Virus record (IMG/VR): IMGVR_UViG_3300044646_001257
Coordinates: 1 to 64,000 of that record
Source of the DNA: a virus
Reading direction: 5' to 3' (one strand)
DNA length: 64,000 nucleotides
Shown here: positions 7,506 to 40,469 of the stretch, piece by piece
Numbering within the stretch: the first letter of the stretch is position 1
Layout of the letters: each line of letters opens with the position of its first letter
Program-made: the position numbers and the translations under genes
The notes under the pieces: generated by a model
Databases searched by the model: none
Told to the model about the DNA's origin: nothing
What the model saw: the letters and a program-made list of their open reading frames with translations, nothing else

Positions 7506-7514
7506 TATAAATAT
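7506..7514 (-). promoter_or_regulatory. Putative late promoter motif ATATTTATA
   Basis: Read on the minus strand, ATATTTATA ends 4 bases before the ATG of the collagen-like fibre gene. The same 9-mer, or a one-base variant, precedes many other genes here in the same orientation. A one-base variant (ATATTTATG) lies further upstream at 7553-7561. Confidence 0.55.
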
Positions 7515-10822: not shown

Positions 10823-12142
10823 TCATATTTTTTCATCCGTTTTATCAGCTGTACCTTTCAATTTACTTGATATTTTATTTAAATAATTCTTGATTTTATC
10901 TTTATAGATCTGTTTAGCAGTAATATTGTTTGGCTCTGTTGGTGCGCGATCACCCCAATGAATTTTTTGTGTAAAATACTTATCTCCAAATCTTTTCCTC
11001 AATTCCTTGGTTCTTATTACGAATGTATCTTCTGGTCCCTTATTTTGTATTATACCCAAGGCAAATGCGTCTTTTAATCTAAATCCCTTCATCTTTAATC
11101 CGGCGATTACACCCACGGGTTTACCTGTATCAGGATCAATTGGTCGATCACTATCGTCTAAAAATCTCAAATCGGTTCTATCTGCATCAATTACTTTATA
11201 ACCACGATAATATTCTGGTAATTCATCAAATATTGCGGAAATATTACCACCAGCCTTCAAATATTTTTCACATTCTATATTGTTTTGTAAAGTTTCTTTT
11301 CTTGAAAAAGTCATATGTGGTTTTGAAGGATCTTCAAGACTTTGCATTGCCCATTTAAACACGGCTGTATAGTCATAAAATTTAACATCTGGATTTGCAG
11401 ATTTCCAACTTTCCAATTTTTTATGAAAATCAAGATCGCTCGTACCGTTTAATCTAACCGATAACTTTAAATTGTATTTAGCAGCCACTTTTTTCAAAAA
11501 CTCCATTTCAATTTGCAATCTTTCAATGAAGTCTTCAGGACGCATTGGATTCAATATTCTACCACGTTTACCTTCGGGTCCGGGTCTACCTTTGCCATAA
11601 AATCTATCTATAATTTTTGGATCTGTAGGAATATTTTTCATCTCATCAGATGTCAATTTGTCACCAAACAACCAACGAGTTTTTCTAGCTCTTGCTGCTA
11701 ATTTTGCTTTTAGATATGCAGGGTTACCAGCAAAATTCAAACAACCAGCGTTACATTCCGGACTTTTCTTTGGACACACTTCGTGACCTGATGAATCAGA
11801 GGGAGCCAAATATAAAATTGCAGTCAAATATCCTTTGTCATCTAAGAAAGACTTCAGTGTTTTTGGATCGTTTAATACACTCAACAGTTTTAATCTTCCT
11901 TGAGTGTCTCGGGCAATATTCTTCATTAATTCGGCCAACTCAAAACTAATAGGCTCCTTTTTGTTCGCTTCAGTCAAACATATCTTTAAATTGTTATCGG
12001 TATCATTTATAGCTTCATATAGAGATTGATTTACGCAATTTTTACATTCACATACAAACGTATCTAGTGGGATAATACTGTCATCAGGTAACCCAAGTGT
12101 TTCGTACATTTTAACTTCTGTTAATAAATCAATAAATTTCAT
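10823..12142 (-). CDS. GP88-like protein with capsid-targeting-like N-terminus
   Basis: The 439-residue protein has a central region like the phage 'gene product 88' family: GYLTAILYLAPS, a cysteine cluster (C in HEVCPKKSPECNAGCLNFAG), then an Ala/Arg-rich helix (KLAARARKTRWLF) before a helical domain. No enzymatic role is established for that family. Two further cysteines near residue 30 (FVCECKNC) could bind a metal. The N-terminus MKFIDLLTEVKMYE matches the short leader found on several proteins in this window and contains LTE, a consensus prohead-protease cut site, so it may be packaged in the head. It overlaps the preceding cupin-like gene by 4 bases (ATGA), indicating translational coupling. 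Confidence 0.6.
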   Translation of the reverse strand: MKFIDLLTEVKMYETLGLPDDSIIPLDTFVCECKNCVNQSLYEAINDTDNNLKICLTEANKKEPISFELAELMKNIARDTQGRLKLLSVLNDPKTLKSFLDDKGYLTAILYLAPSDSSGHEVCPKKSPECNAGCLNFAGNPAYLKAKLAARARKTRWLFGDKLTSDEMKNIPTDPKIIDRFYGKGRPGPEGKRGRILNPMRPEDFIERLQIEMEFLKKVAAKYNLKLSVRLNGTSDLDFHKKLESWKSANPDVKFYDYTAVFKWAMQSLEDPSKPHMTFSRKETLQNNIECEKYLKAGGNISAIFDELPEYYRGYKVIDADRTDLRFLDDSDRPIDPDTGKPVGVIAGLKMKGFRLKDAFALGIIQNKGPEDTFVIRTKELRKRFGDKYFTQKIHWGDRAPTEPNNITAKQIYKDKIKNYLNKISSKLKGTADKTDEKI

Positions 12143-13045: not shown

Positions 13046-13054
13046 ATATTTATA
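13046..13054 (+). promoter_or_regulatory. Putative late promoter motif, plus strand (ATATTTATA)
   Basis: An exact copy in plus orientation ends 4 bases before the ATG at 13059. It shows that the motif orientation follows the gene and not the genome strand. Confidence 0.55.
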
Positions 13055-13058
13055 TTAT

Positions 13059-14024
13059 ATGAACTTTAAAAAACAACTGTTTTACACCATCGTAATTTTA
13101 ATACTAACCGGTTGTATTTCGTCTGAAGTTAGACCGGCGAAGCAAGTTACAACTGCACAAGACGCTGTTGCTAAACAAGAAGCCAAAGTAGATAATACGA
13201 TGGTAGAGTTGGAAAAAGTAGAAAAAGGCAAACGTGTACAAGCATCGTCTTTGTCTATAGGTATTCAACACTCTTTAAGTCAAGTAACAAACCCGTCAGT
13301 ACAAGTAGATACTGCTAAATCACTCAATGAACGTGTAATTTCTATAGTTGGATCACCACACATAGATGAAATTAAACGTATAAAAGCTACCGTTGATTTA
13401 TTAAACAGTCAAGTTGCTGAGGAAAGAAAAAAGGGTGATCAATTACTATCACAACGTGACGAAATCATAAACAAATTGCAAAAAGAAAAGTCTGCTTTGA
13501 AAGAAAAGTATGACGATGAATTATGGCAAATGACTGATAAAGCAAAAGAAATTGCAAAAGAAGCTGATCAAAGCAAGGCTACTTTGGATGCTATGAGTGG
13601 TATGTTTGGTCTTAATGCTGTATTTTGGGGTTTAAAAAAGTTCTTTGTTAGTGCAATGACCGCAATTATCATATTTGTTGTGGTATTTGTTATATTAAGA
13701 ATATTAGCAACAGTACATCCAGCAGCTGGTGCAGCATTTAGTATATTTAATATGATTGGTTCTGGATTACTAAGTTTGGTAAAAGCATTAACTCCACATG
13801 CATTTGAATTGGCTAACTTCGCTTCAAAAGACAAAGTTGATGAATTCAAGTCTCCACTTGTTAAAATAGTTGATGTAATTCAAGAACTAAAAGAAAAACA
13901 AAAAGAATCTCCTGATAGAGTATATCCATTGACTGAAGTATTGAAAAGATTTGATAAAGAAATGGATAGTTCCGAAAAAGAATTGATTGATGATATTCTA
14001 AAAGAACAAAAGTGGATTAAATAA
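13059..14024 (+). CDS. Lipoprotein with coiled coil and membrane segment
   Basis: Residues 1-19 form a lipoprotein signal peptide with the lipobox LTGC (Cys19). Residues 20-190 are charged, helical and likely periplasmic coiled coil (KKGDQLLSQRDEIINKLQKEK). Residues about 196-218 are a strong membrane segment and 222-245 a second, weaker one; a charged tail of about 75 residues follows. An outer-membrane lipid anchor, a periplasmic rod and an inner-membrane segment is the topology of unimolecular spanins, though this protein is longer and its C-terminal tail is unusual. It is the first gene of the plus-strand island and is followed by a mini-MscS-like protein and an ankyrin-cyclase, so an envelope sensor or effector role is an alternative. 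I do not recognise a named family. Confidence 0.65.
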   Translation: MNFKKQLFYTIVILILTGCISSEVRPAKQVTTAQDAVAKQEAKVDNTMVELEKVEKGKRVQASSLSIGIQHSLSQVTNPSVQVDTAKSLNERVISIVGSPHIDEIKRIKATVDLLNSQVAEERKKGDQLLSQRDEIINKLQKEKSALKEKYDDELWQMTDKAKEIAKEADQSKATLDAMSGMFGLNAVFWGLKKFFVSAMTAIIIFVVVFVILRILATVHPAAGAAFSIFNMIGSGLLSLVKALTPHAFELANFASKDKVDEFKSPLVKIVDVIQELKEKQKESPDRVYPLTEVLKRFDKEMDSSEKELIDDILKEQKWIK

Positions 14025-14028
14025 ATTA

Positions 14029-14037
14029 ATATTTATA
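14029..14037 (+). promoter_or_regulatory. Putative late promoter motif ATATTTATA
   Basis: An exact plus-strand copy lies just after the lipoprotein stop, with an overlapping variant at 14035-14043. The next ATG is 32 bases further on, so this copy leaves a leader. Confidence 0.45.
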
Positions 14038-14069
14038 TTTATTATATAATTGTTTTGGATTGTTAACAA

Positions 14070-14477
14070 ATGTTATGTGTTAATAAACTAAAGACGATTA
14101 TGGATACAAATACAGCACACGTAATATCTCAACAGGTACTAGAATCAACCGCACAAGATATGACAGGCAAATATGTCTGGATGTTCGTAGCGGGATTAGT
14201 AATTCTAATGTTTAAATCAAGCATTGAAAAACTTGCCGCGGCACTGTTTATGTTTATTGGGTCCGATTACAAAGAAGATGATGTTGTATATATTGATGGC
14301 AAACCCGGCAGAATTGTTCGTGTGGGACTTACAAAAACTGTATTTTTCATATATGACGTAGTAGATGGTAAGGTTGTAGGCGGAAGTAAATTAGTTATCC
14401 AAAATGAAAGACTAGCTGGTCTAAACATAGAAAAACCACTACCTCAATTGGATTTAAGCCGTTTCAAAAAAGACTAA
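14070..14477 (+). CDS. Mini-MscS-like membrane protein
   Basis: The 135-residue protein has one membrane segment (about residues 35-50), an amphipathic helix (51-64) and then a beta domain (68-112) that reads like the MscS mechanosensitive-channel beta domain: GSDYKEDDVVYIDGKPGRI, VRVGLTKTVFF, then KLVIQNERL where MscS has its V-I-P-N motif. The remaining MscS transmembrane helices and the large C-terminal vestibule are missing, so it is a minimal pore-helix plus beta-domain protein. The start could be the ATG at 14100 (MDTNTAHV), which would remove 10 residues. It lies between the lipoprotein and the ankyrin-cyclase on the same strand with 15 to 45 base gaps. A channel or membrane-tethering function is inference from the fold pattern. 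Confidence 0.65.
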   Translation: MLCVNKLKTIMDTNTAHVISQQVLESTAQDMTGKYVWMFVAGLVILMFKSSIEKLAAALFMFIGSDYKEDDVVYIDGKPGRIVRVGLTKTVFFIYDVVDGKVVGGSKLVIQNERLAGLNIEKPLPQLDLSRFKKD

Positions 14478-14492
14478 TTTACTAATTAAACT

Positions 14493-16268
14493 ATGGCTAT
14501 TAACATTTTTACCCACATCAAACGTGGGTTATACGATAACGTCTACAACTGTATCGAAAAAGAAAAAGTAGATGTCAATCAAAGAGACGATGATACAGGC
14601 AATCCACCATTGGTTGTTGCTGTAGAAGAAAATCAAGTGGAAATCGTAAAACTACTGTTAAATCACGGTGCAGATCCCAACTGTAAAGATTGGACCAGTA
14701 AAAATACAGCACTGGATGTAGCTGAACAAAAAGGTTTTAAAAATATCGCAGAAATACTACAACAAAGAGGTGCAAAATACAGTAGCGGTAGTAGTTTCCA
14801 TTTAGCCGCAAAAAATGGTGATATCGTTTCTATTGAAGAAATGTTAGACAAGGGATTTGATATCAATGAAGTTGACGCTGGCAAAGGTTGGACCGCACTA
14901 CATTATGCAGTAAATTACGGACAAAAACACTTGGTTGAATATCTAATTGTAAGAGGAGCTGATGTTAACAAGAAAGATTTCTTGGGTAAAAATAATCCTA
15001 TTGACGTACTATCCAATACCAATAGAGGTGACATTGTTAAGTTATTGAATAAGTACGGTGCTAAATCCGCAGGAGGTGTTAGTATTCATTTCTGCGCAGA
15101 AACAGGAGATTTTGAAGGTGTACAATCGTTCTTTGATAAAGATGGTAAAATCAATGGCAGAGATGAAAAGAATGGATGGATGCCACTACATTATGCCGTT
15201 AACGCTAACGATGTTGATATGGTGGAATTTTTGGTACATTTGGGTGCGAATGTTAACGGTGCAGATTTCAAAGGTGAAATTGCTCCGTTGGATTTGGCAT
15301 TTAAGACGGGTAATGTAGAAATGCAAACATATCTGCAATCCAAAGGTGCTCAAAGAAAAAAGAAACACGATATTGGTGGTGGTGGAAAAGATGTAAACAT
15401 ATACATCACAGATGAAGTTAAAAAGCAAATTGCATTGTTTGTTGAAAAACGTAATCGTGAAGAAGCTGCAATAAAGAAACACGAAGAAGAACAAGCATCA
15501 AAAGAACCAAAGAAAAAAGATGCACCAGCTAAGAAAATTAACTGGAAAGATTTCTTGAAACTTAAAGATATTCCAGTGGTAGAAAAGAAAGAAGAAAAGA
15601 AGGTAGAAGTTGTTAAACCCGTCAAACAAGTTGTCAAGAAAGTTGAACAAGTTGATGTAGAAGTCAAATCTGGTAGATTGCAATTGGACGTAGAACAAGA
15701 AGGTTATATATTCTTTATGGATATTGTTGCTTATAGTAAGAAAACAACAGATGAACAAAAGAAGGCTTGTAAAGATTTGGGTGCATTGGTTAAGTCTACA
15801 ATGCAATACAAAACAGCTAATGCGCTTGAAAAGTTAATTATATTACCTACTGGTGACGGTATGGTATTGGGATTCTTTACTTATTTGGAAGATGCAATGA
15901 ATTGTGCAGTTACTATAGCTAAAGCAGTAAAGGATAGACCGGATTTACAAATGAGAATGGGTGTACATTGTGGACCTGTAATACCAATGGAAGATATTAA
16001 TGGCAATCTCAATATCAGTGGTGATGGTATCAACTATGCTCAAAGAGTAATGGATGCAGGTGAAAGCAATCATTTGTTGGTTAGTTCAGCAGTAATGTTA
16101 AAATATGATAGACCACCATATGTATTAGTAAATGACTTGGGGGATGTGGTTGTAAAACACGGTGTAGTTATGCATTTGTATAGTTTACACGGTAGTGATT
16201 TTGGTAACAAATCATTTCCATCTAGTAGAGTAAAGAAAGCAGAACCAACAACAAATAAACCAGTATGA
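14493..16268 (+). CDS. Ankyrin repeats fused to a class III nucleotidyl cyclase
   Basis: Residues 1-290 are about eight ankyrin repeats (for example GWTALHYAVNYGQKHLVEYL and GADVN). Residues 290-400 are a Lys/Glu-rich linker. Residues 403-565 are a class III cyclase catalytic domain: FFMDIVAYS with metal-ligand Asp410, LPTGDG with the second metal Asp455, MRMGVHCGPV, and GDGINYAQR with the transition-state Asn514 and Arg518. The base-specifying positions are atypical: Leu451 where adenylyl cyclases have Lys and Asn507 where they have Asp, so the substrate nucleotide is not predictable and a pyrimidine or relaxed specificity is possible. All four catalytic residues are present, so it should be active. 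Cyclase domains of this class are also the signal makers of the Pycsar antiphage system. The product would act on a partner; neighbours include a channel-like protein. The stop overlaps the next ATG (ATGA). Confidence 0.85.
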   Translation: MAINIFTHIKRGLYDNVYNCIEKEKVDVNQRDDDTGNPPLVVAVEENQVEIVKLLLNHGADPNCKDWTSKNTALDVAEQKGFKNIAEILQQRGAKYSSGSSFHLAAKNGDIVSIEEMLDKGFDINEVDAGKGWTALHYAVNYGQKHLVEYLIVRGADVNKKDFLGKNNPIDVLSNTNRGDIVKLLNKYGAKSAGGVSIHFCAETGDFEGVQSFFDKDGKINGRDEKNGWMPLHYAVNANDVDMVEFLVHLGANVNGADFKGEIAPLDLAFKTGNVEMQTYLQSKGAQRKKKHDIGGGGKDVNIYITDEVKKQIALFVEKRNREEAAIKKHEEEQASKEPKKKDAPAKKINWKDFLKLKDIPVVEKKEEKKVEVVKPVKQVVKKVEQVDVEVKSGRLQLDVEQEGYIFFMDIVAYSKKTTDEQKKACKDLGALVKSTMQYKTANALEKLIILPTGDGMVLGFFTYLEDAMNCAVTIAKAVKDRPDLQMRMGVHCGPVIPMEDINGNLNISGDGINYAQRVMDAGESNHLLVSSAVMLKYDRPPYVLVNDLGDVVVKHGVVMHLYSLHGSDFGNKSFPSSRVKKAEPTTNKPV

Positions 16269-16477
16269 GAACAATGCCTTTAGTAAGACAATATCATCCA
16301 AGTATTGTTAATACAGACTTGGATGTATACAAAATAAAGGATAGAGTTATGGCAGCTCCTATAAATAATCACCCTGATCCATTTCAAGTAATAGATAGAC
16401 TTGGTATCAATAAGATTAATGCTACCAAAATTAGAACTGTAGTATATAATTCCAAAGGTCTTTTTTATATAATATAA
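16265..16477 (+). CDS. Small uncharacterised protein coupled to the cyclase gene
   Basis: This 70-residue protein begins inside the cyclase stop codon (ATGA overlap), typical of translational coupling. It contains MAAPINNHPDPFQVIDRLGI and a C-terminal strand TVVYNSKGLFYII. No domain is recognised and there is no membrane segment. The tight coupling is the main argument that it is real; it may be a partner or regulator of the cyclase. Confidence 0.5.
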   Translation: MRTMPLVRQYHPSIVNTDLDVYKIKDRVMAAPINNHPDPFQVIDRLGINKINATKIRTVVYNSKGLFYII

Positions 16478-16480
16478 ATC

Positions 16481-16508
16481 TTGACAGTTAGAGTTATATG
16501 GTTATACT
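16481..16508 (+). promoter_or_regulatory. Sigma70-type promoter before mom-like gene
   Basis: TTGACA at 16481-16486, a 16-base spacer and TATACT at 16503-16508. The -35 box is perfect and the -10 box has one mismatch. The ATG follows after only 6 bases, so transcription would start at or next to the start codon and give a leaderless mRNA. This probably lets host polymerase transcribe the gene early. Confidence 0.7.
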
Positions 16509-16514
16509 GAAATA

Positions 16515-17288
16515 ATGTCGGAGTATTTTGACCCCACATTAATTTACATCAAAAGCATCAATAAGAATGTTGCAAAAACTCTTATTGAAAAGAATCATTA
16601 TACACACAAGTGGTCTCTTTGTACTGTAGCTTATGGAGTATACTATAAAGAATATGTAGAGAGTACATTCTTTGGTGGTTTTAACGAACGATTAATAGGT
16701 GTATTAGTATATGGAAACGCCGTGGGTAGAAATGCTAGTACCAGTATCTCTTCACTACTTACTAATAACAATGTGTTAGAATTAACACGACTGTGGATTG
16801 CAGATGGTTATGGTAAAAATATAGAAAGTTATTGTATAGCTGAAAGCTTTAGATTATTAAATACTGAATATCCCCACATCAAATGTATTCTCAGTTATGC
16901 GGATAGTGAAGCTGGACACGCAGGCACAATCTATCAAGCAACTGGCTTTCTATATCAAGGCGATAACTATGTAGATATCGCTATAATGCCTAACTATAGT
17001 GTTAGTTTAGTTGGTCCTCCTAACTATGATTGGATACACAGCAGAAGTGTATATTCAAGATGGAAAACACACAGCGTAGATAAACTAAAAGAACGTATTG
17101 GTAGAACATTCTGGCGCAAACGAGAAAGTGGTAAACATCGTTATATCAAGTTTATCAGTAACAAAATAGAAAATAAAAAGTTGACTAAATCTCTTAAACA
17201 TAAAGTTCTACCTTACCCCAAAGATACTTCGTTCAAAGAAGAAGTACAAGAAATCGTTGTAACATCTACCAACGAATTTTTCGAATAA
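16515..17288 (+). CDS. Mom-like DNA adenine-modification protein (GNAT fold)
   Basis: The 257-residue protein matches the family of phage Mu Mom: LIEKNHYTHKW near the start, GVLVYGNAVGR, LELTRLWIADGYGKN, then SYADSEAGHAGTIYQATGF followed by LYQG. These are the blocks of the Mom GNAT-like core. Mu Mom converts adenines in phage DNA to an N6-acetamido derivative that blocks many restriction enzymes. The basic C-terminus (about residues 185-240) could contact DNA. It has its own strong sigma70-type promoter, fitting early expression before replication. Its neighbours are a small membrane protein and the ankyrin-cyclase. Base preference and chemistry are inferred from the family only. Confidence 0.8.
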   Translation: MSEYFDPTLIYIKSINKNVAKTLIEKNHYTHKWSLCTVAYGVYYKEYVESTFFGGFNERLIGVLVYGNAVGRNASTSISSLLTNNNVLELTRLWIADGYGKNIESYCIAESFRLLNTEYPHIKCILSYADSEAGHAGTIYQATGFLYQGDNYVDIAIMPNYSVSLVGPPNYDWIHSRSVYSRWKTHSVDKLKERIGRTFWRKRESGKHRYIKFISNKIENKKLTKSLKHKVLPYPKDTSFKEEVQEIVVTSTNEFFE

Positions 17289-17292
17289 AAAT

Positions 17293-17541
17293 ATGAAAGA
17301 CTATATTACATTAAAGGATGTAAAATCCAGATACAAAGAAGATTTATTATTCGTAAAAACAAACCCGAAACTGTTTATTATTAATTTATTTACGCAAAAT
17401 AAACAATTTAGACATTGGGAATATATGTGGATCAAAGTAATAATTGGACTTATAAGATTATACTTTGTAAGTTTTATATGTAGATGTAAATTTTGGATTG
17501 TTTGTATTTTAAGTGGACATTTTCCTTGGGAAATAAAATAA
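17293..17541 (+). CDS. Small membrane protein
   Basis: The 82-residue protein has a charged N-terminal third (LKDVKSRYKEDLLF) and a hydrophobic, aromatic C-terminal half (about residues 44-74) that can form one or two membrane spans, with two cysteines near IVCILSG. It starts 4 bases after the mom-like gene and so shares its transcript, and it ends 2 bases from the convergent GIY-YIG gene. No family is recognised. Small size and position would fit a membrane effector, holin-like or superinfection-exclusion protein, but nothing in the sequence decides this. Confidence 0.5.
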   Translation: MKDYITLKDVKSRYKEDLLFVKTNPKLFIINLFTQNKQFRHWEYMWIKVIIGLIRLYFVSFICRCKFWIVCILSGHFPWEIK

Positions 17542-17543
17542 AA

Positions 17544-18287
17544 CTAATATTTTCTTTTATGTAATTTGATCGTGGTTAATGATACTCCATACTTCTCACT
17601 TAATGCATTGTTAGTAAAACTACCACTCTTTAAATCATCAACAAATTCATTCTTTCTAAGCGCAAAATTTCTCTTTTGTTCACTAATCTTACGTTTCATT
17701 TCATCACTCATAGCACCACGCTTTTTGCCTTTTAATCCATTATCATAACTGTAATTAATATTACGATTAGCCAATTTGTCATTTCTCTCCTTGTACTTAA
17801 GTGTACCACTGTCAATACCATACTTGTCAACAAACCACTCCAAAGTATAACGTCCTACAGCACGATCACGTTGCCTTTCTTTAGCCTCATCACTATGCTT
17901 TTTACCGTGCATAGGATTTTTAGCTCCTAGATTAATATCAGATAGTAACTGACGAGTTTCTTCTTTATCAGGATTATGTGTAAAATTATCGCCTCCACTT
18001 GCGGTTGGGGTAATATTATAACCTATATCACGCATATAGGGTTTAAACATATCTAAATAAAATTGTTCTCGTTTAAACAATTCACATTCTATTACATTTT
18101 CTAATATAATAAATTCAAAACTGTTTTCCCCGTAAAAATCCCAAGCGTGTTGTAATTTAGGATTCTTATGTTTATTCTTTTTTAAATCATTTTTATGTTC
18201 CCACCAACGACGATCAATATCTTTAGCAGAACCAATATAAAACTTGCCATTCTTAACATTTGTAATTTTGTATATACCACTTTTCAT
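17544..18287 (-). CDS. GIY-YIG homing-type endonuclease
   Basis: The N-terminus MKSGIYKITNVKNGKFYIGS holds the GIY...YIG motif, with Arg26/Arg27 and a following HKNDL region, and Glu near residue 90 as the expected metal ligand of the nuclease. The middle has a NUMOD3-type DNA-binding motif (GAKNPMHGKKHSDEAKE) and a second copy-like stretch (KRGAMSDEMKRKISEQKR). The C-terminus (NNALSEKYGVSLTTIKLHK) looks like a small helix-turn-helix. It resembles T4 Seg and other free-standing homing endonucleases, which spread next to conserved genes; here it lies just downstream of the major capsid gene, beyond that gene's terminator. It has its own sigma70-type promoter. Confidence 0.88.
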   Translation of the reverse strand: MKSGIYKITNVKNGKFYIGSAKDIDRRWWEHKNDLKKNKHKNPKLQHAWDFYGENSFEFIILENVIECELFKREQFYLDMFKPYMRDIGYNITPTASGGDNFTHNPDKEETRQLLSDINLGAKNPMHGKKHSDEAKERQRDRAVGRYTLEWFVDKYGIDSGTLKYKERNDKLANRNINYSYDNGLKGKKRGAMSDEMKRKISEQKRNFALRKNEFVDDLKSGSFTNNALSEKYGVSLTTIKLHKRKY

Positions 18288-21508: not shown

Positions 21509-22102
21509 ATGCCTGCAAAAAGCGAAAAACAAGCCAGACTATTTAGATTGGTAAGAGCACTACAAAAAGGTGGAATCAAATCAAAAGAAGTTTCACCACA
21601 AGTTCGTAAGATGGCACGTACCATCAAACCAAGTAGTGTAAAACACTTTGTTAAATTGAAAGAAATATTGAAAAGTCTTAATGAAGCAGAATATTCATTA
21701 AGTGATTTTGATATCATTAAAGGCAAATCATTTAACCAAGTGCTAAAAGAAAATGAAGGTATTGCGTTTACTAAAAAAGAAATGTTAACTTTTCAAAGTA
21801 AACAAGCGGGATTTAGTGGATTTGGAAAAACAAATTTTATTCCTAACCCACCAGAAAATACAAAAATAGAAACTGAAATATTTAGTAATGGTAGTACCAA
21901 GAAATATGTGTTTAAAAAGCTCATAGATCAAAAAAATGAAAATTTAATTGTATATGCTTGTTTTATTCAAAGATCTTATCCTGATAAACCAGACAAAGAA
22001 ATATTCAGTATGTTAAGTACTGCTTTGGATAAGAATAAAGATTCTGAACAAACAAAAACCCTATCTGACTTTATAGATAGAATTAACTCTTATGGCCTAT
22101 AA
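21509..22102 (+). CDS. Protein with N-terminal DUF3008-like domain
   Basis: Residues 1-48 (MPAKSEKQARLFRLVRALQK, then SPQVRKMARTIKPSSVKHF) match the small DUF3008-type domain found in phage and bacterial proteins, whose function is unknown. The remaining 150 residues are not recognised; they include a KKYVFKKLID strand and a helical C-terminus. The gene is one of two plus-strand genes set between the scaffold and protease genes on the other strand, so it looks like a later insertion into the head cluster. Its ATG is 5 bases after an ATATTTATT motif, and its end overlaps the next gene by 11 bases. Confidence 0.7.
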   Translation: MPAKSEKQARLFRLVRALQKGGIKSKEVSPQVRKMARTIKPSSVKHFVKLKEILKSLNEAEYSLSDFDIIKGKSFNQVLKENEGIAFTKKEMLTFQSKQAGFSGFGKTNFIPNPPENTKIETEIFSNGSTKKYVFKKLIDQKNENLIVYACFIQRSYPDKPDKEIFSMLSTALDKNKDSEQTKTLSDFIDRINSYGL

Positions 22103-22550
22103 TTTCAATCCAAATCTAGCTAAACATATGAATTCCACAAAAGACAATTATAAGTTTATAAAAAGAACTGGGGACGAAACTCCATATTCCAACCCAGATG
22201 TGCGTTCTATGAATAATAGCTACAACAATTATAAGTCTCCAAAATTAATTAACTTTATAAACAATGATAATTTTGAAGAAGAAAAAATGTTTAAGTTAGA
22301 AGATATAGATAATCCAAACGGATGGGATTTTACGGAAATTGATATATTGGGTGAAATGAATTTTCGTATAGATGATGAATACAGAATGTTTTCTGAAATA
22401 GAAGTTCCATCTTTAGATATGGTCAACGAGAAAAGAAAAACCTTCGTCTATAAAACAGACGAAGGTTATGTGATAGAAGCAAATAGAAGATACGTTTTTG
22501 AATCGTTCGATAAAATGTTGGAATTTATTGATTCGATACCGATGAGTTAA
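22092..22550 (+). CDS. Uncharacterised acidic protein
   Basis: The 152-residue protein is Asn/Asp/Glu-rich with no recognised domain. The second half (WDFTEIDILGEMNFRIDDEY onward) is acidic and predicted beta/alpha; the end reads YVIEANRRYVFESFDKMLEF. It overlaps the previous gene by 11 bases at its start (ATG at 22128 is an alternative) and the convergent gene by 26 bases at its end. An 11-bp hairpin that can terminate the opposite strand is embedded in its codons at 22439-22467. Confidence 0.6.
   Translation: MAYNFNPNLAKHMNSTKDNYKFIKRTGDETPYSNPDVRSMNNSYNNYKSPKLINFINNDNFEEEKMFKLEDIDNPNGWDFTEIDILGEMNFRIDDEYRMFSEIEVPSLDMVNEKRKTFVYKTDEGYVIEANRRYVFESFDKMLEFIDSIPMS
22439..22467 (-). terminator. 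Intrinsic terminator for minus strand inside a plus-strand gene
   Basis: A perfect 11-bp stem (22439-22449 with 22457-22467) and a 7-base loop; read on the minus strand it is followed by TTTCTTTTC. It lies about 58 bases beyond the stop of the minus-strand gene 22525-22956 and within the coding region of the convergent gene. Confidence 0.7.
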
Positions 22551-36315: not shown

Positions 36316-38460
36316 TTAAATTTTTTGTTCTATTAATAGTTGATCTATGGTATCCATAACCATTTTTGGAGTTATTTGTTTGGTACATTCAAACTCTTCT
36401 CTCTTATCAGATTTTGGACACCACTTCCAATTTCCCTTGTCAAATAGCGAATCATTCCAACATCCTGTACACACCGAGTGGTTTTGTACTCTATAAGGAG
36501 TATCAAATTCAGTATATGGATATGAGAACCCGCTAATTAATACTACTGGTTTTTTAACTGCCCAAGCTAACCAAGACAATCCTGATGGTAAACCTATAAA
36601 AAACTCACTGTGATATATTTGATTCATACGATCAACCAGTGGTTTATCTCCTGTAAAATCTAAAGCATTGGATGGCATACTATTCATATAATCCGATCCA
36701 TTTCCGAATGTTTTGTGTTTATCTATGCATATTACTTCAAATCCCTTTGATTTTATATATTCAACAACACGTTCCCATCCGCCTTTATTGTTCCAATATT
36801 TGGCTTGACACGTACTTTGTGTTGCAATTGTGACGTATCTCTTTTTTAGAGGTCTTTCTTTGATTTCAAAGTCAAGCAATGGTAATTCTGGTTCATATGG
36901 TAACCCTAAATAGTCACTTGCTATTTTTTGTAGAGGTTGTTTTCTGGGATCTGTTTTGCATCTATCATTGTTAGATCCATTTTCGTCTACATAATATCCC
37001 AGTTTATAAGTTGCAAATGCATCTGAAATAGGTTTGTTATTGTGAACAAACTTAATTGAAGGGTATTTGTTTTCAAAAATATTTTTCAAAGGTAACTTGA
37101 CATAAAGATCACATTCGTGTTTTTTTCTAAACTGTTCAATTATAGGCATCCAAGCCAATTGATCGCCTAAAGAGTAACTTTCATATTCAATTACTACTTT
37201 CTTATTCTTTAAATTTAACTTATATGTTTCGACCAATTCATTAGTCTTATTATCTTTAATGTGAATTTCATAGGGAATGTAATATGTAAAATTACAACTT
37301 CCCCACCAATTATGTTTTAAATCAGTTTCATATTTAATACTATTATCGTCACCATTATAGAATGTTATGTGGAAACTTTGATCTACGTCTACTGGGTTAT
37401 CCACTTCAATCTTGGCATTATCATTGAATGAATATTTAAATACCGCATTTGTTTTAATACTCTTTTCATTCTTTTTAAGATTTTCATAAACATCGATGTG
37501 TTTAATAGCAAACAATCGTTCAGTATATTGATCATATAAATCGATTAACTGGTCTACTCGGTTGGAATAGGAATTTTCCTTAGCACACTCCAAAGCTTTG
37601 GTTTGATATCGACTATAATCAGATGTGATTTGTTGTATTGCGGATTTTATTTGTTCTACATTTCGTTCAACAACAACCATACCTTTATATGATTTTTCCT
37701 CAAACGTACCTACCACAGGTAAACCACAACTCATTGCTTCTAAAAGCGTTAGATTTGGATGTCCTGCTTCCAATTCAGATGGGTGTATGAATATAGAATG
37801 GTCATTATATAAATCGATCAACGATTCTTCATTTAAATCAAATACTTTTGTCAATTTATCATACTGATTTAATTCTTCATCTAATATATCAAAGAACTTT
37901 TTATTATTAGATGGTCCAGCAATAGTAATTGGATATCCTAATTCTTTAGCCACTTTAATCGCATATGTGAATCCTTTTCTATCATATGATTGATTATTGG
38001 CATAACCATTATTTGCAACACACAACAGTTTATTTACTGGAATTTTGTTATTTTTATGTTTAAACACATCGGTATTTACCGCGTGGGAAAAATAACGTAA
38101 TTTTTTACTTCCGAAATAATCAACCAAATATTTGGCAGGACAAGTGGATATTACACTATTTTCAATTGCTTGTAAATTCTCTTTATATACAGATGAATCT
38201 TTGCCATACAAATAAGCGTGATGATCGTGTAAACTAAAGATATAAGGTATGCCTCTTTTATGACATTCATTTGCCAGATTTGCTACGTGTATATGTACGA
38301 TTATATCGTCTGAATATTTAATTTCATTCAAATACTTTATCTGACATTCTAATCCCTTTTTGTTTAACAGTTGATGATAATCCCAAATGATTTTTTCAAC
38401 TGCACCCCATCCATTAGGCGGAATAGGCAATAACCCTAAATTAACTTGTATAATTTTCAT
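36316..38460 (-). CDS. Two-domain glycosyltransferase: GT4 plus autotransporter-heptosyltransferase-like
   Basis: The N-terminal half (about 1-330) is a GT-B glycosyltransferase of the GT4 type: PPNGWGAVEKIIWDYHQLL as the acceptor loop and HPSELEAGHPNLTLLEAMSC as the donor-binding E-x7-E motif. The C-terminal half (about 435-710) resembles the autotransporter O-heptosyltransferases: SLGDQLAWMPIIEQF, STCQAKYWNNKGGW, GLPSGLSWLAWAVKKPVVL, and a cysteine finger (CTGCWND, WCPK, FECTK) typical of that family. Those enzymes put heptose on Ser residues of adhesin repeats. The gene overlaps the next glycosyltransferase gene by 4 bases. A role in modifying phage virion proteins or host surface sugars is inferred; the substrate is unknown. 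Confidence 0.8.
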   Translation of the reverse strand: MKIIQVNLGLLPIPPNGWGAVEKIIWDYHQLLNKKGLECQIKYLNEIKYSDDIIVHIHVANLANECHKRGIPYIFSLHDHHAYLYGKDSSVYKENLQAIENSVISTCPAKYLVDYFGSKKLRYFSHAVNTDVFKHKNNKIPVNKLLCVANNGYANNQSYDRKGFTYAIKVAKELGYPITIAGPSNNKKFFDILDEELNQYDKLTKVFDLNEESLIDLYNDHSIFIHPSELEAGHPNLTLLEAMSCGLPVVGTFEEKSYKGMVVVERNVEQIKSAIQQITSDYSRYQTKALECAKENSYSNRVDQLIDLYDQYTERLFAIKHIDVYENLKKNEKSIKTNAVFKYSFNDNAKIEVDNPVDVDQSFHITFYNGDDNSIKYETDLKHNWWGSCNFTYYIPYEIHIKDNKTNELVETYKLNLKNKKVVIEYESYSLGDQLAWMPIIEQFRKKHECDLYVKLPLKNIFENKYPSIKFVHNNKPISDAFATYKLGYYVDENGSNNDRCKTDPRKQPLQKIASDYLGLPYEPELPLLDFEIKERPLKKRYVTIATQSTCQAKYWNNKGGWERVVEYIKSKGFEVICIDKHKTFGNGSDYMNSMPSNALDFTGDKPLVDRMNQIYHSEFFIGLPSGLSWLAWAVKKPVVLISGFSYPYTEFDTPYRVQNHSVCTGCWNDSLFDKGNWKWCPKSDKREEFECTKQITPKMVMDTIDQLLIEQKI

Positions 38461-40469
38461 TGTGTAATATCAATAGAACCGTTAATATCTATGTCTTCCA
38501 ATCTTCTAAATGACTTTTTATAACTTCTCAATAAAATTTTATTTTGATCATATAGATTATTTTCAATTTCATAGAAATTATTGTTTTCAAACTCGTTTGC
38601 TAAATAAAAACAAACCTTTTCTGATACCGTGTAAGAATAATTGTTAACTACCTCTCCGTTCTTTTTTATTATTATCTCATTTATACGACCATCTAATTTA
38701 TTATTGATGTATGTTAATACTCCAAACTTATTTATATTCTTCATCCTCAGAACCGATAGATATTCTACCATTGAGAATAAATTATTTTTACTATTGCTTA
38801 AATAAGATTCTTCGTTGTTTGTATAATCTATATGAAGATCGCTCTTATTAGATATTAGTTTATTATAATAGAATTGTTCCAATCCATTTGATATATTTTT
38901 CTTGGTAACAAATTCCATATATTCTTCTGGCGTATAGTAATCAAAATTATCCAAGAAAAATTGAGTATTAATTCCGTGAAATACTGTTTTGAATGTGTCA
39001 CCTTCTAAGGCCTTATCATAAAAGAAAAATGCTTTCTTATTAATTAGAATTTCATCTACATCGTATAACTTTGAAAAATCTGATTCTGAAATGACCATAT
39101 CATAATTGAAGCAAATTGCATTTTTGTATCCGATTTTATTTGCCAATGATATGCCATTGTAATAGTTTAATAATACAGCAAGACCGTGATAATTATCACA
39201 ATCGGAAGGTGGAAAAAATAAATTGATCTTGGTATTATCTGTGTTGTATGTCCATCTATTATAGAAATTATGTTTTAAAATTGGATTGTTTGAGTCATAT
39301 ACATAATGATCAGCCGCTTTTTGCAAATCAACACTAGCAGGATAATGAGATGACAACAACACTTTATAACCAGCTTTTTTAGCTTGATTAATTGATTCCA
39401 AAGTTGTGTCTTCTACAGCTTTAAAATTGGGATGTGTTGATATGATAACCACCGTGTTTTTATTTGCAGTTTTCTTTATATTAACAATCTCTATTTCAGA
39501 ATCTGAAATCATCCCCAATTGATTCTTTATGAGTTTAACATTACGATTAAAATTGGTTTCGTCTAGATACTTGATATTTTCAAATACCTTGTATCTATCA
39601 AGGTAAACAGGCAAATTGTACAATAGAGATGGTATATTATAAGATATAGCCTCTTTAATTACAATAGGTGCTGTCTCTTTATCAGTTGCGTGACCTCTGC
39701 TAGTGAACAAAAACAAATCCATACAACTGTAGAAGTTTTCTACATCTTTGCGTTCACCCCAAACTTTTACATTACTCGGTAAATTATCCAACAGAGGTTG
39801 CCAATAATTTTTGAAGTTATCAGCCATATTACCCAGACAATGAAATTGAATATGTTCTTTTTCCATTGCACGAGCATATTCTATAAATTCTTTTTGGTTT
39901 TTTCTAGGAGTAAACAATCCAACGTGTAATACGTGTTTTTTACTTTCATCCAATCCCAAAAATTTCAATCCTTCAGATCTATCTTTTCTACACTTCACAG
40001 AAATTGGATATTCAATAACTGTAGTATTTATGCCTAAAGATTCGACGTTTTGTTTCTGATAATTACTTACGAATGTAAATTTATCTGGAAAAACACGCTT
40101 TCTTCTTGGATCAAAACTACTATCGTGCGAAGTTTCCACAATTAGATATTCTCGGTCTTTATTATAGAGTTTAGTAGCCAAGTTAACATCCATAAAGTAT
40201 TCTGGCATTTCCTCCAAATGAATAATGTCAGGTTTTATATTGTCAACTAACTTTAGTAACTCAAATTTATTTGATGATAATGTGTAAAACCTCTTACCGC
40301 AAATTTTCTGAAGCTGCTTTCTTTGAACAACTAAAACTCCACCAGTAATATCATCATATTCTACACAATATATTTCATAATCATTAATTAACGATTGTAT
40401 TTTTTTCAATAAAAATTGAGGTAGTCCTCCAGTAGAAAGATGTGGAGCTATAAACAATATTTTTTTCAT
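38457..40469 (-). CDS. Two-domain glycosyltransferase (GT4 N-terminus)
   Basis: Residues about 1-320 are a GT-B, GT4-type domain: ILFIAPHLSTGGLPQFLLKK, VLHVGLFTPRKNQKEFIE, and HATDKETAPIVIKEAISYN as the donor-binding region. The C-terminal part (about 345-600) is a second domain that starts NTVVIISTHPNFKAVEDTTL and looks like a GT-A-type fold with an Asp-containing NYDMVIS stretch; I cannot name its family. At 670 residues it is long for a phage enzyme. It lies between the heptosyltransferase-like gene and an FkbM-type methyltransferase with 3-4 base spacing, forming a sugar-modification operon. Confidence 0.72.
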   Translation of the reverse strand: MKKILFIAPHLSTGGLPQFLLKKIQSLINDYEIYCVEYDDITGGVLVVQRKQLQKICGKRFYTLSSNKFELLKLVDNIKPDIIHLEEMPEYFMDVNLATKLYNKDREYLIVETSHDSSFDPRRKRVFPDKFTFVSNYQKQNVESLGINTTVIEYPISVKCRKDRSEGLKFLGLDESKKHVLHVGLFTPRKNQKEFIEYARAMEKEHIQFHCLGNMADNFKNYWQPLLDNLPSNVKVWGERKDVENFYSCMDLFLFTSRGHATDKETAPIVIKEAISYNIPSLLYNLPVYLDRYKVFENIKYLDETNFNRNVKLIKNQLGMISDSEIEIVNIKKTANKNTVVIISTHPNFKAVEDTTLESINQAKKAGYKVLLSSHYPASVDLQKAADHYVYDSNNPILKHNFYNRWTYNTDNTKINLFFPPSDCDNYHGLAVLLNYYNGISLANKIGYKNAICFNYDMVISESDFSKLYDVDEILINKKAFFFYDKALEGDTFKTVFHGINTQFFLDNFDYYTPEEYMEFVTKKNISNGLEQFYYNKLISNKSDLHIDYTNNEESYLSNSKNNLFSMVEYLSVLRMKNINKFGVLTYINNKLDGRINEIIIKKNGEVVNNYSYTVSEKVCFYLANEFENNNFYEIENNLYDQNKILLRSYKKSFRRLEDIDINGSIDITQ

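Follow-up and report, generated by a model that had tools for sequence, protein, structure and literature searches.

The first 64,000 nucleotides of the IMG/VR virus record IMGVR_UViG_3300044646_001257 (hereafter the window, part of a record of 79,214 bp) carry a three-gene cassette encoding a small membrane protein that resembles MscS channels (mini-MscS), a fusion of ankyrin repeats with a class III nucleotide cyclase (ankyrin-cyclase) and a 70-amino-acid (aa) protein. This cassette stands between two backbone genes of a phage seen only in metagenomic data, one for a lipoprotein and the other for a Mom-type DNA modification protein. Its anatomy, modularity, co-occurrence and conservation are observed directly. 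As for its role, the best explanation, to be taken as tentative, is that of a mobile phage cassette that would make a cyclic nucleotide and couple it to an inner-membrane protein. The features of the region are listed here; L-numbers (L002 etc.) and G-numbers (G014 etc.) are used below as locus and genome labels, respectively.

13046..13054, plus strand: ATATTTATA motif, promoter-like, ending 4 nt before the lipoprotein start codon
13059..14024, plus strand: lipoprotein, 321 aa, with a helical-looking middle and a long C-terminal tail; backbone gene adjoining the cassette
14029..14037, plus strand: second copy of the ATATTTATA motif, 32 nt before the start at 14070 and 62 nt before an internal ATG at 14100
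14070..14477, plus strand: mini-MscS-like membrane protein, 135 aa; first cassette gene
14493..16268, plus strand: ankyrin-class III cyclase, 591 aa, with repeats at about 1-290, a linker and the cyclase domain at about 395-570
16265..16477, plus strand: 70-aa protein, its gene sharing 4 nt with the end of the cyclase gene (start codon over stop codon)
16481..16508, plus strand: TTGACA-16-TATACT promoter-like site of the Mom gene, outside the cassette and suggesting a separate transcription unit
16515..17288, plus strand: Mom-type DNA modification protein, 257 aa; neighbouring backbone gene outside the cassette
17293..17541, plus strand: 82-aa protein with one hydrophobic segment, variable, outside the cassette

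The association of the mini-MscS with the ankyrin-cyclase is the most regular feature of these loci. Two IMG/VR scans with the cyclase domain, whose search patterns favour close relatives, gave 68 loci (L002-L069), and the lipoprotein, the mini-MscS and the ankyrin-cyclase recur in dozens of viral contigs at about 59-100% identity. A mini-MscS gene is located at most 1.5 kb upstream in 59/59 ankyrin-cyclase loci with a complete start, all of them with at least 600 nt of upstream sequence. The lipoprotein is found at most 2.6 kb upstream in 51 of the 53 cyclase loci with at least 2.5 kb upstream (exceptions L045 and L052). The 70-aa gene directly follows the cyclase in 56 of the 66 loci with at least 300 nt downstream. 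Eight of the ten others carry a set made of a barrel-like protein, a second cyclase and an HD-type protein, and the last two have neither, the cyclase being followed by a PAS-domain membrane protein in L065 and by a similar-looking open reading frame (ORF) in L069. Mom is present in 36 of the 44 cyclase loci with at least 5.5 kb downstream. Searching from the other side, the mini-MscS scan gave 70 loci, with a cyclase within 2.5 kb in 62/62 having at least 1.5 kb downstream (60 with the ankyrin-cyclase, 2 with the second cyclase only); among the eight short loci, an ankyrin gene is visible in four and the other four are too short for a call. An earlier note on this DNA would have been refuted by related phages in which the cyclase has none of these neighbours. 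No such case was seen: wherever the start of a phage ankyrin-cyclase is complete and the flanking sequence long enough, a mini-MscS is present.

The borders of the cassette are given by loci from which it is absent. In three related contigs (L116, L134 and L139), the lipoprotein gene is directly followed by Mom, and the comparison by eye of empty and occupied junctions places the borders at the lipoprotein stop and at the Mom promoter. A promoter-like site of the kind that precedes Mom in the window is kept in these three contigs. The cassette also appears on different backbones. The L058 backbone is window-like (gp14-like protein 88%, Mom 89%, major capsid protein 94%), and its ankyrin-cyclase is 73% identical to the one in the window and 93% identical to the one in L057, a contig of 174 kb whose flanks differ. 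Thus, the cassette moves between lineages.

The same earlier note had considered the six plus-strand genes as one signalling and envelope module. The ORF listing does place all six within the minus-strand structural region, where the note had put them, flanked by minus-strand genes. The six-gene module itself was rejected as both Mom, with its own promoter-like site, and the lipoprotein occur without the cassette. The lipoprotein scan yielded at least 65 loci, five of them too short; in the 60 others, with room downstream, the mini-MscS adjoins the lipoprotein in 44 and does not in 16 (L116, L134, L139, L118, L124, L126, L132, L140 and others). One of these 16, L125, belongs to a contig that has a mini-MscS and a cyclase elsewhere (L045). 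For the 82-aa gene, tblastn matches were obtained only in near-identical contigs, and a copy is readable in L136. The signalling and envelope idea was therefore kept in part: a cyclase with intact residues is tied to a small membrane protein (59/59) in an envelope-related setting, whereas Mom and the 82-aa protein are not members.

Alternative contents are found at the same place in relatives. L136/L221 and L195/L230 are devoid of the ankyrin-cyclase and display, after the mini-MscS, a barrel-like protein (Pfam OMP_b-brl E 0.11 only), a membrane cyclase of 482 or 479 aa and an HD-type protein. This second cyclase (Guanylate_cyc E=6.6e-27) shares about 20% identity with the ankyrin-cyclase in the aligned catalytic region. 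In L136/L221, its gene (10070-11518 in L136) lies between those of the mini-MscS and Mom, and in L025-L029 and L052, which have both cyclases, it follows the ankyrin-cyclase. In L045, an HD protein follows the ankyrin-cyclase and the 70-aa gene without a second cyclase. As the alignment of the second cyclase is shifted at the Lys/Gly-Asp segment, its base-selecting residues, Lys341 and Thr416, were read by eye. A Lys/Thr pair occurs in known adenylyl cyclases.

The HD protein was not accepted as a proven phosphodiesterase: it matches Npun_R2479_HDIG with E 7.2e-15 but far below the cut-off of the model, the phosphohydrolase PHROG match is weak (1.8e-4) and no convincing PDB relative was found. 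HD-family relatives exist in 34 of 387 genomes (36 matches) of the phylum of L070, the bacterial homologue presented below. Only 1 of the 18 bacterial loci examined (of 36), L269, has cyclases beside the HD gene, none being detected by profile in the other 17; the pairing of HD protein and cyclase is therefore found mainly in phages. In L269 (2786-7767, genome G046), class III cyclase genes stand on either side of the HD-family gene.

A further arrangement, found in two contigs (L057/L120/L204 and L123/L203), consists of the lipoprotein, the mini-MscS, a protein with two transmembrane segments (two-TM protein), a holin-family protein and the ankyrin-cyclase, which is cut by the contig end in L123. 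L118, L119, L126 and L147 display the lipoprotein, the two-TM protein, the holin-family protein and a small XhlA-like protein (XhlA E 0.014, sub-threshold), with neither cyclase nor mini-MscS. The holin assignment comes from the L118 protein, matching PHROG phrog_2359 with E=5.2e-11, Pfam preferring a weak YLATT match (E 0.0047). PAS-type membrane-anchored proteins are located directly downstream of the lipoprotein in L140 (9055-9678) and L145 (8943-9533), as judged by similarity to L065, and of the ankyrin-cyclase in L065 (8613-9212), assigned by profile. Hence the lipoprotein seems to stay in place while the signalling or lysis genes beside it change.

The protein encoded at 14493-16268 combines ankyrin repeats (E=2.6e-38 in a profile search) with a cyclase domain scoring 23.2 bits against Guanylate_cyc PF00211, just above the Pfam cut-off of 21.9, and the PDB cyclases 3mr7 and 1ybt match it with E 5e-5 and 5.6e-4. 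The secondary structure predicted for the cyclase part alternates strands and helices in a cyclase-like manner, with low confidence there. A Foldseek comparison of the cyclase model with viral structures gave, among the matches listed, named matches that are mostly ankyrin proteins and none named cyclase; the cyclase domain has no match among 50,697 phage records, even at E 1. Residues D410, D455, N514 and R518 are invariant across 13 aligned sequences; the two Asp correspond to the metal-binding residues of class III cyclases, and N514 and R518 to the catalytic Asn and Arg. The ratio of nonsynonymous to synonymous substitution rates (dN/dS) of the domain is about 0.05 (0.034/0.687 against L030), indicating purifying selection. 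As catalytic residues are kept and dN/dS is about 0.05, a broken cyclase was rejected, and the protein is probably an active enzyme.

The canonical purine-selecting pair of class III cyclases is Lys/Asp. Here, the base-selecting positions are non-canonical, with Leu451 and Asn507, so that they are no guide to the nucleotide made. A hydrophobic/Asn pair is likewise carried by L070, the bacterial homologue, and by the 14 cyclases aligned from genomes G014 and G167 (bacterial loci L074 and L086 being left out of the motif alignment), which makes it a subfamily marker rather than a mark of decay. For comparison with the pyrimidine-selecting residues of Pycsar cyclases, given as F100/R142/Q144 in EaPycC and F60/K104/F109 in AnPycC (PMC11224242), the residues read here are F408, L451 and T453.

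The mini-MscS is predicted to consist of one hydrophobic helix and a beta domain. This organization would be akin to that of MscS channels, whose structures occupy the first 11 places of its Foldseek list (best E 0.005, TM-scores about 0.3) for a low-confidence model of residues 12-135 (predicted local distance difference test, pLDDT, 57.7). No Foldseek match reached E 0.001 and a PDB profile search gave none up to E 1. The protein differs from MscS channels in that it has a single hydrophobic helix, without further MscS helices, C-terminal cage or cyclic-nucleotide-binding domain, and it scores 16 bits (E=0.013) against the MscS beta domain PF00924, under the cut-off of 20.2. Bacterial cyclic-nucleotide-gated (bCNG) channels belong to the MscS channels. 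Divergent mini-MscS relatives begin at the residue corresponding to the internal ATG at 14100.

The lipoprotein carries a lipobox-like LTGC sequence, its sole cysteine being Cys19, and a hydrophobic segment at 195-213. A search among known phages up to E 0.1 gave no match to it, and its profile gives four weak matches to solved structures (E 0.23 or worse). Unimolecular spanins are defined by an N-terminal lipoprotein signal, a C-terminal transmembrane domain and no periplasmic cysteine (PMC6139136). The lipoprotein resembles such spanins (T1 gp11) in an N-terminal lipobox-like site, a long cysteine-free stretch and a putative transmembrane segment in the C-terminal part, and its topology may be spanin-like. 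However, about 80-108 residues follow the hydrophobic segments of the lipoproteins, which look helical by eye, whereas T1 gp11 is described as mainly extended beta. Just upstream of the lipoprotein, a small, probably secreted EF-hand protein is encoded in L057 (4185-4469; E 1.2e-4, sub-cut-off) and L126 (7644-7907).

The expression signals of the region include the ATATTTATA motif, present in 12 copies in the window against 3.68 expected, a number reached in 1/100 shuffles. The record contains 17 copies, and 7 of them end 3-5 nt before a start codon, where about 0.02 of 17 would be expected (62 genes x 3 offsets / 158,428 strand positions). The genes so preceded are those for the tail fibre, the head-tail adaptor, the lipoprotein and four proteins without PHROG match; the lipoprotein thus shares the element with some virion genes. 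The motif stands 32 nt before the mini-MscS and 33 nt before the tail sheath. The copies ending 3-5 nt before start codons, e.g. at 7506, 10770, 13046 and 22961, are candidate promoters with almost no leader. The Mom site TTGACA-16-TATACT is an 11/12 match, such matches being not in excess in the region (22 vs 24.3 expected).

The preferred reading, that of a mobile cassette coupling a cyclic nucleotide to the inner membrane, can be set out in four steps. First, the ATATTTATA element that they share may drive expression of the lipoprotein and the mini-MscS together with that of some virion genes. Then, the cyclase domain would convert a nucleoside triphosphate into a cyclic nucleotide, as its residues and the selection on it suggest, and the ankyrin repeats might bind a protein partner that localises the cyclase or switches it on. 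Finally, the output would take place at the inner membrane, where, going by co-occurrence, the mini-MscS may be an effector, an anchor or a regulator and so change the permeability of the envelope or the timing of lysis. A membrane-sensor cyclase joins or replaces the ankyrin-cyclase in relatives, its HD-type partner might degrade the signal, and some loci have an adjacent holin-family gene. In this reading, the cassette would probably act late at the inner membrane. An extended form is unlikely, namely a phage second-messenger pathway with interchangeable or stackable cyclase inputs, an HD off-switch and the mini-MscS and lipoprotein as output (with the holin in relatives), in which the cyclic nucleotide would time or abort lysis according to the state of the host or envelope.

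Several observations weigh against the preferred reading. No exact ATATTTATA is present within 100 nt upstream of the major head and portal genes, and because of this the motif points only weakly to late expression. The cyclic-nucleotide-binding domain PF00027 was found above cut-off in 0/24 phage records, many perhaps fragments, and the Pfam profile search recognised none in the mini-MscS; the link between messenger and membrane is therefore genomic only. Going by contig names, the cyclase scan already contained 60 of the 70 mini-MscS contigs; of the ten new ones, three have room downstream and 3/3 of these a cyclase. The loci all belong to a handful of related phage groups and are therefore not independent events. 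The two-TM protein looks sensor-like by eye without any family match, and the functions given to it and to the HD protein rest on weak or absent family matches. The L118-type holin has no homologue in the record of the window and no match in 11/13 records. The L070 contig has neither lipoprotein nor mini-MscS, ending 388 nt after the gene, and these two proteins match 0/387 genomes of its phylum, a search in which no positive control matched.

Sub-threshold cyclic-nucleotide-binding matches were obtained in the L137 record (E=1.6e-4) and in the L057 record (E=0.015), both in small proteins above the Cupin_2 cut-off. Cupins and cyclic-nucleotide-binding domains are similar in fold. The two were rejected as receptors, being above the cupin cut-off and having a similar ORF in L126, which shows no cyclase in the stretch covered. 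Small cupin proteins of this kind are encoded near the lipoprotein region at L210 1468-1821 and L209 1468-1839, with a sub-cut-off cyclic-nucleotide-binding profile match, and, by eye, at L126 12316-12672.

The strongest rival, which is somewhat doubtful, is host reprogramming: the phage cyclic nucleotide would act on CRP-type or other receptors of the host and change its transcription, the mini-MscS and the lipoprotein separately serving osmotic or envelope stability. That no phage-encoded cyclic-nucleotide receptor was found in the 24 records is in line with it, as is the full-length homologue of the ankyrin-cyclase at L070, on a contig of a Verrucomicrobiales metagenome-assembled genome (MAG), since such an enzyme could plug into a bacterial circuit. 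Further support comes from HTVC008M and Melnitz, which also have class III cyclases in opposite-strand islands adjoining structural genes, with curli genes (PMC9599517). However, the pairing of the mini-MscS with two unrelated cyclases would be unexpected if the membrane gene were unrelated, and the motif upstream gives a hint of late expression, a stage at which reprogramming would be less useful.

L070 is the only bacterial match in the scan of the genome collection, on an 8,494-bp high-GC contig. Its protein is full length, ankyrin repeats included, and 70% identical to the ankyrin-cyclase of the window; the gene has a GC content of 0.61 vs 0.66 upstream, and 113 codons are identical among 414 identical residues. 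By eye, its neighbours resemble DNA ligase, KdsB and lipoprotein genes, so that its location seems chromosomal. Among the 387 genomes of its phylum, only four pass E 1e-20, the next best having E 1.5e-48 vs 1.9e-121, and its genome stands alone at E 1e-30 among the 50 genomes of its family. In the tree, L070 falls between two phage groups with the outgroup far away, and transfer may have occurred in either direction. Weak cyclase relatives occur in 34 plasmid records, with at most 32% identity among the matches listed. The Verrucomicrobiota cyclases of G014 and G167 share the subfamily motifs (LPTGDGM-like, Asn at the second base position, VKHG) at 36-42% identity. They differ in architecture, the cyclase being N-terminal with a hydrophobic segment and then a long C-terminus, tetratricopeptide-like by eye, behind it, and show no ankyrin match to the phage repeats.

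Phage class III cyclases are already known from the Pelagibacter phage HTVC008M and the Methylophilales phages Melnitz (PMC9599517). As in the window, the cyclase of these Kyanoviridae phages stands at or near the end of an opposite-strand island adjoining tail or baseplate genes and envelope or secretion genes (L282 2828-4663 and L283 2810-4861). In contrast, its partners are curli and FecR genes, no mini-MscS is annotated in the two regions read, and the HTVC008M catalytic domain is related to the second cyclase (38%) and not to the ankyrin-cyclase domain.

Superinfection exclusion or inter-phage defence is improbable, less so only than the weakest alternative below. Here, the ankyrin repeats would sense a competing phage and the cyclase would trigger membrane damage through the mini-MscS, following a Pycsar-like logic. 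The Pycsar system (PycC with PycTM or PycTIR) likewise encodes a class III-fold cyclase beside a membrane protein, PycTM being a membrane effector (PMC11224242), so that the combination resembles a defence architecture; moreover, the cassette is swapped between backbones and sometimes absent, like accessory genes. Unlike Pycsar, it sits in a phage backbone without a PycC-family match: the PADLOC PycC profile reaches only E=0.042, over 30 residues, and what else PADLOC matches is the ankyrin part. With no cyclic-nucleotide-binding effector domain above cut-off in any of the 24 records, plain Pycsar was rejected, in agreement with the view already taken in the earlier note that the island is not simply Pycsar. 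The same mini-MscS/cyclase pair in 59/59 loci, without diversification, also argues against defence.

Least probable of all is that the cyclase is a decoy without catalytic activity, or that the protein inhibits host proteins by means of its ankyrin repeats and retains the cyclase domain as a vestige. The two altered purine-selecting positions (Leu451 for Lys, Asn507 for Asp) and the score barely above the Pfam cut-off would favour this. Against it, similar substitutions in L070 and in the 14 cyclases aligned from two other genomes of its phylum mark a subfamily rather than decay, the residues for metal binding and the Asn and Arg do not vary, and dN/dS is about 0.05.

Phages are able to destroy cyclic-nucleotide alarm signals of their hosts, as with Acb1 and Apyc1 (PMC9117128). 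A conserved cassette that would make such a signal, beside one membrane protein and with interchangeable cyclases, would be, if true, a phage-side signalling system. This raises the possibility that certain phages conduct second-messenger signalling of their own at the envelope of the cell. What is new is the ankyrin-cyclase/mini-MscS cassette and its interchangeable cyclases. Among the literature matches listed (titles and abstract beginnings, subscription journals being mostly outside), no phage ankyrin-cyclase or cyclase/mini-MscS pair was found, which is weak evidence of absence. The three genes offer a concrete test of whether a phage tunes lysis or envelope state via a second messenger.

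The terminase of the phage shares 56% identity with that of Microcystis phage Mel-JY01 and 51% with those of Flavobacterium phages. Mom matches PF25680 with 152.9 bits vs a cut-off of 27.1, over profile positions 2-202 of 202. The recognised minus-strand neighbours of the island are the tail fibre, the head-tail adaptor, the major head protein, the portal and the tail sheath. Two more plus-strand ORFs at 21509-22550 make the island not the sole plus-strand stretch of the window, in which no tRNA or Rfam features were found. The GC skew (0.233) and AT skew (0.161) at 14001-16000 are the most positive of the window. The GP88-family gene at 10823-12142 is matched over only 7% in many related loci, a diverged allele being readable in L136 and L139, and this flank is therefore also a recombination site. 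A GIY-YIG/NUMOD3 homing endonuclease gene at 17544-18287 adjoins the major capsid gene and is present, diverged or absent among relatives. Further along, two large ORFs (714 and 670 aa) at 36316-40469 are glycosyltransferase-like by eye.

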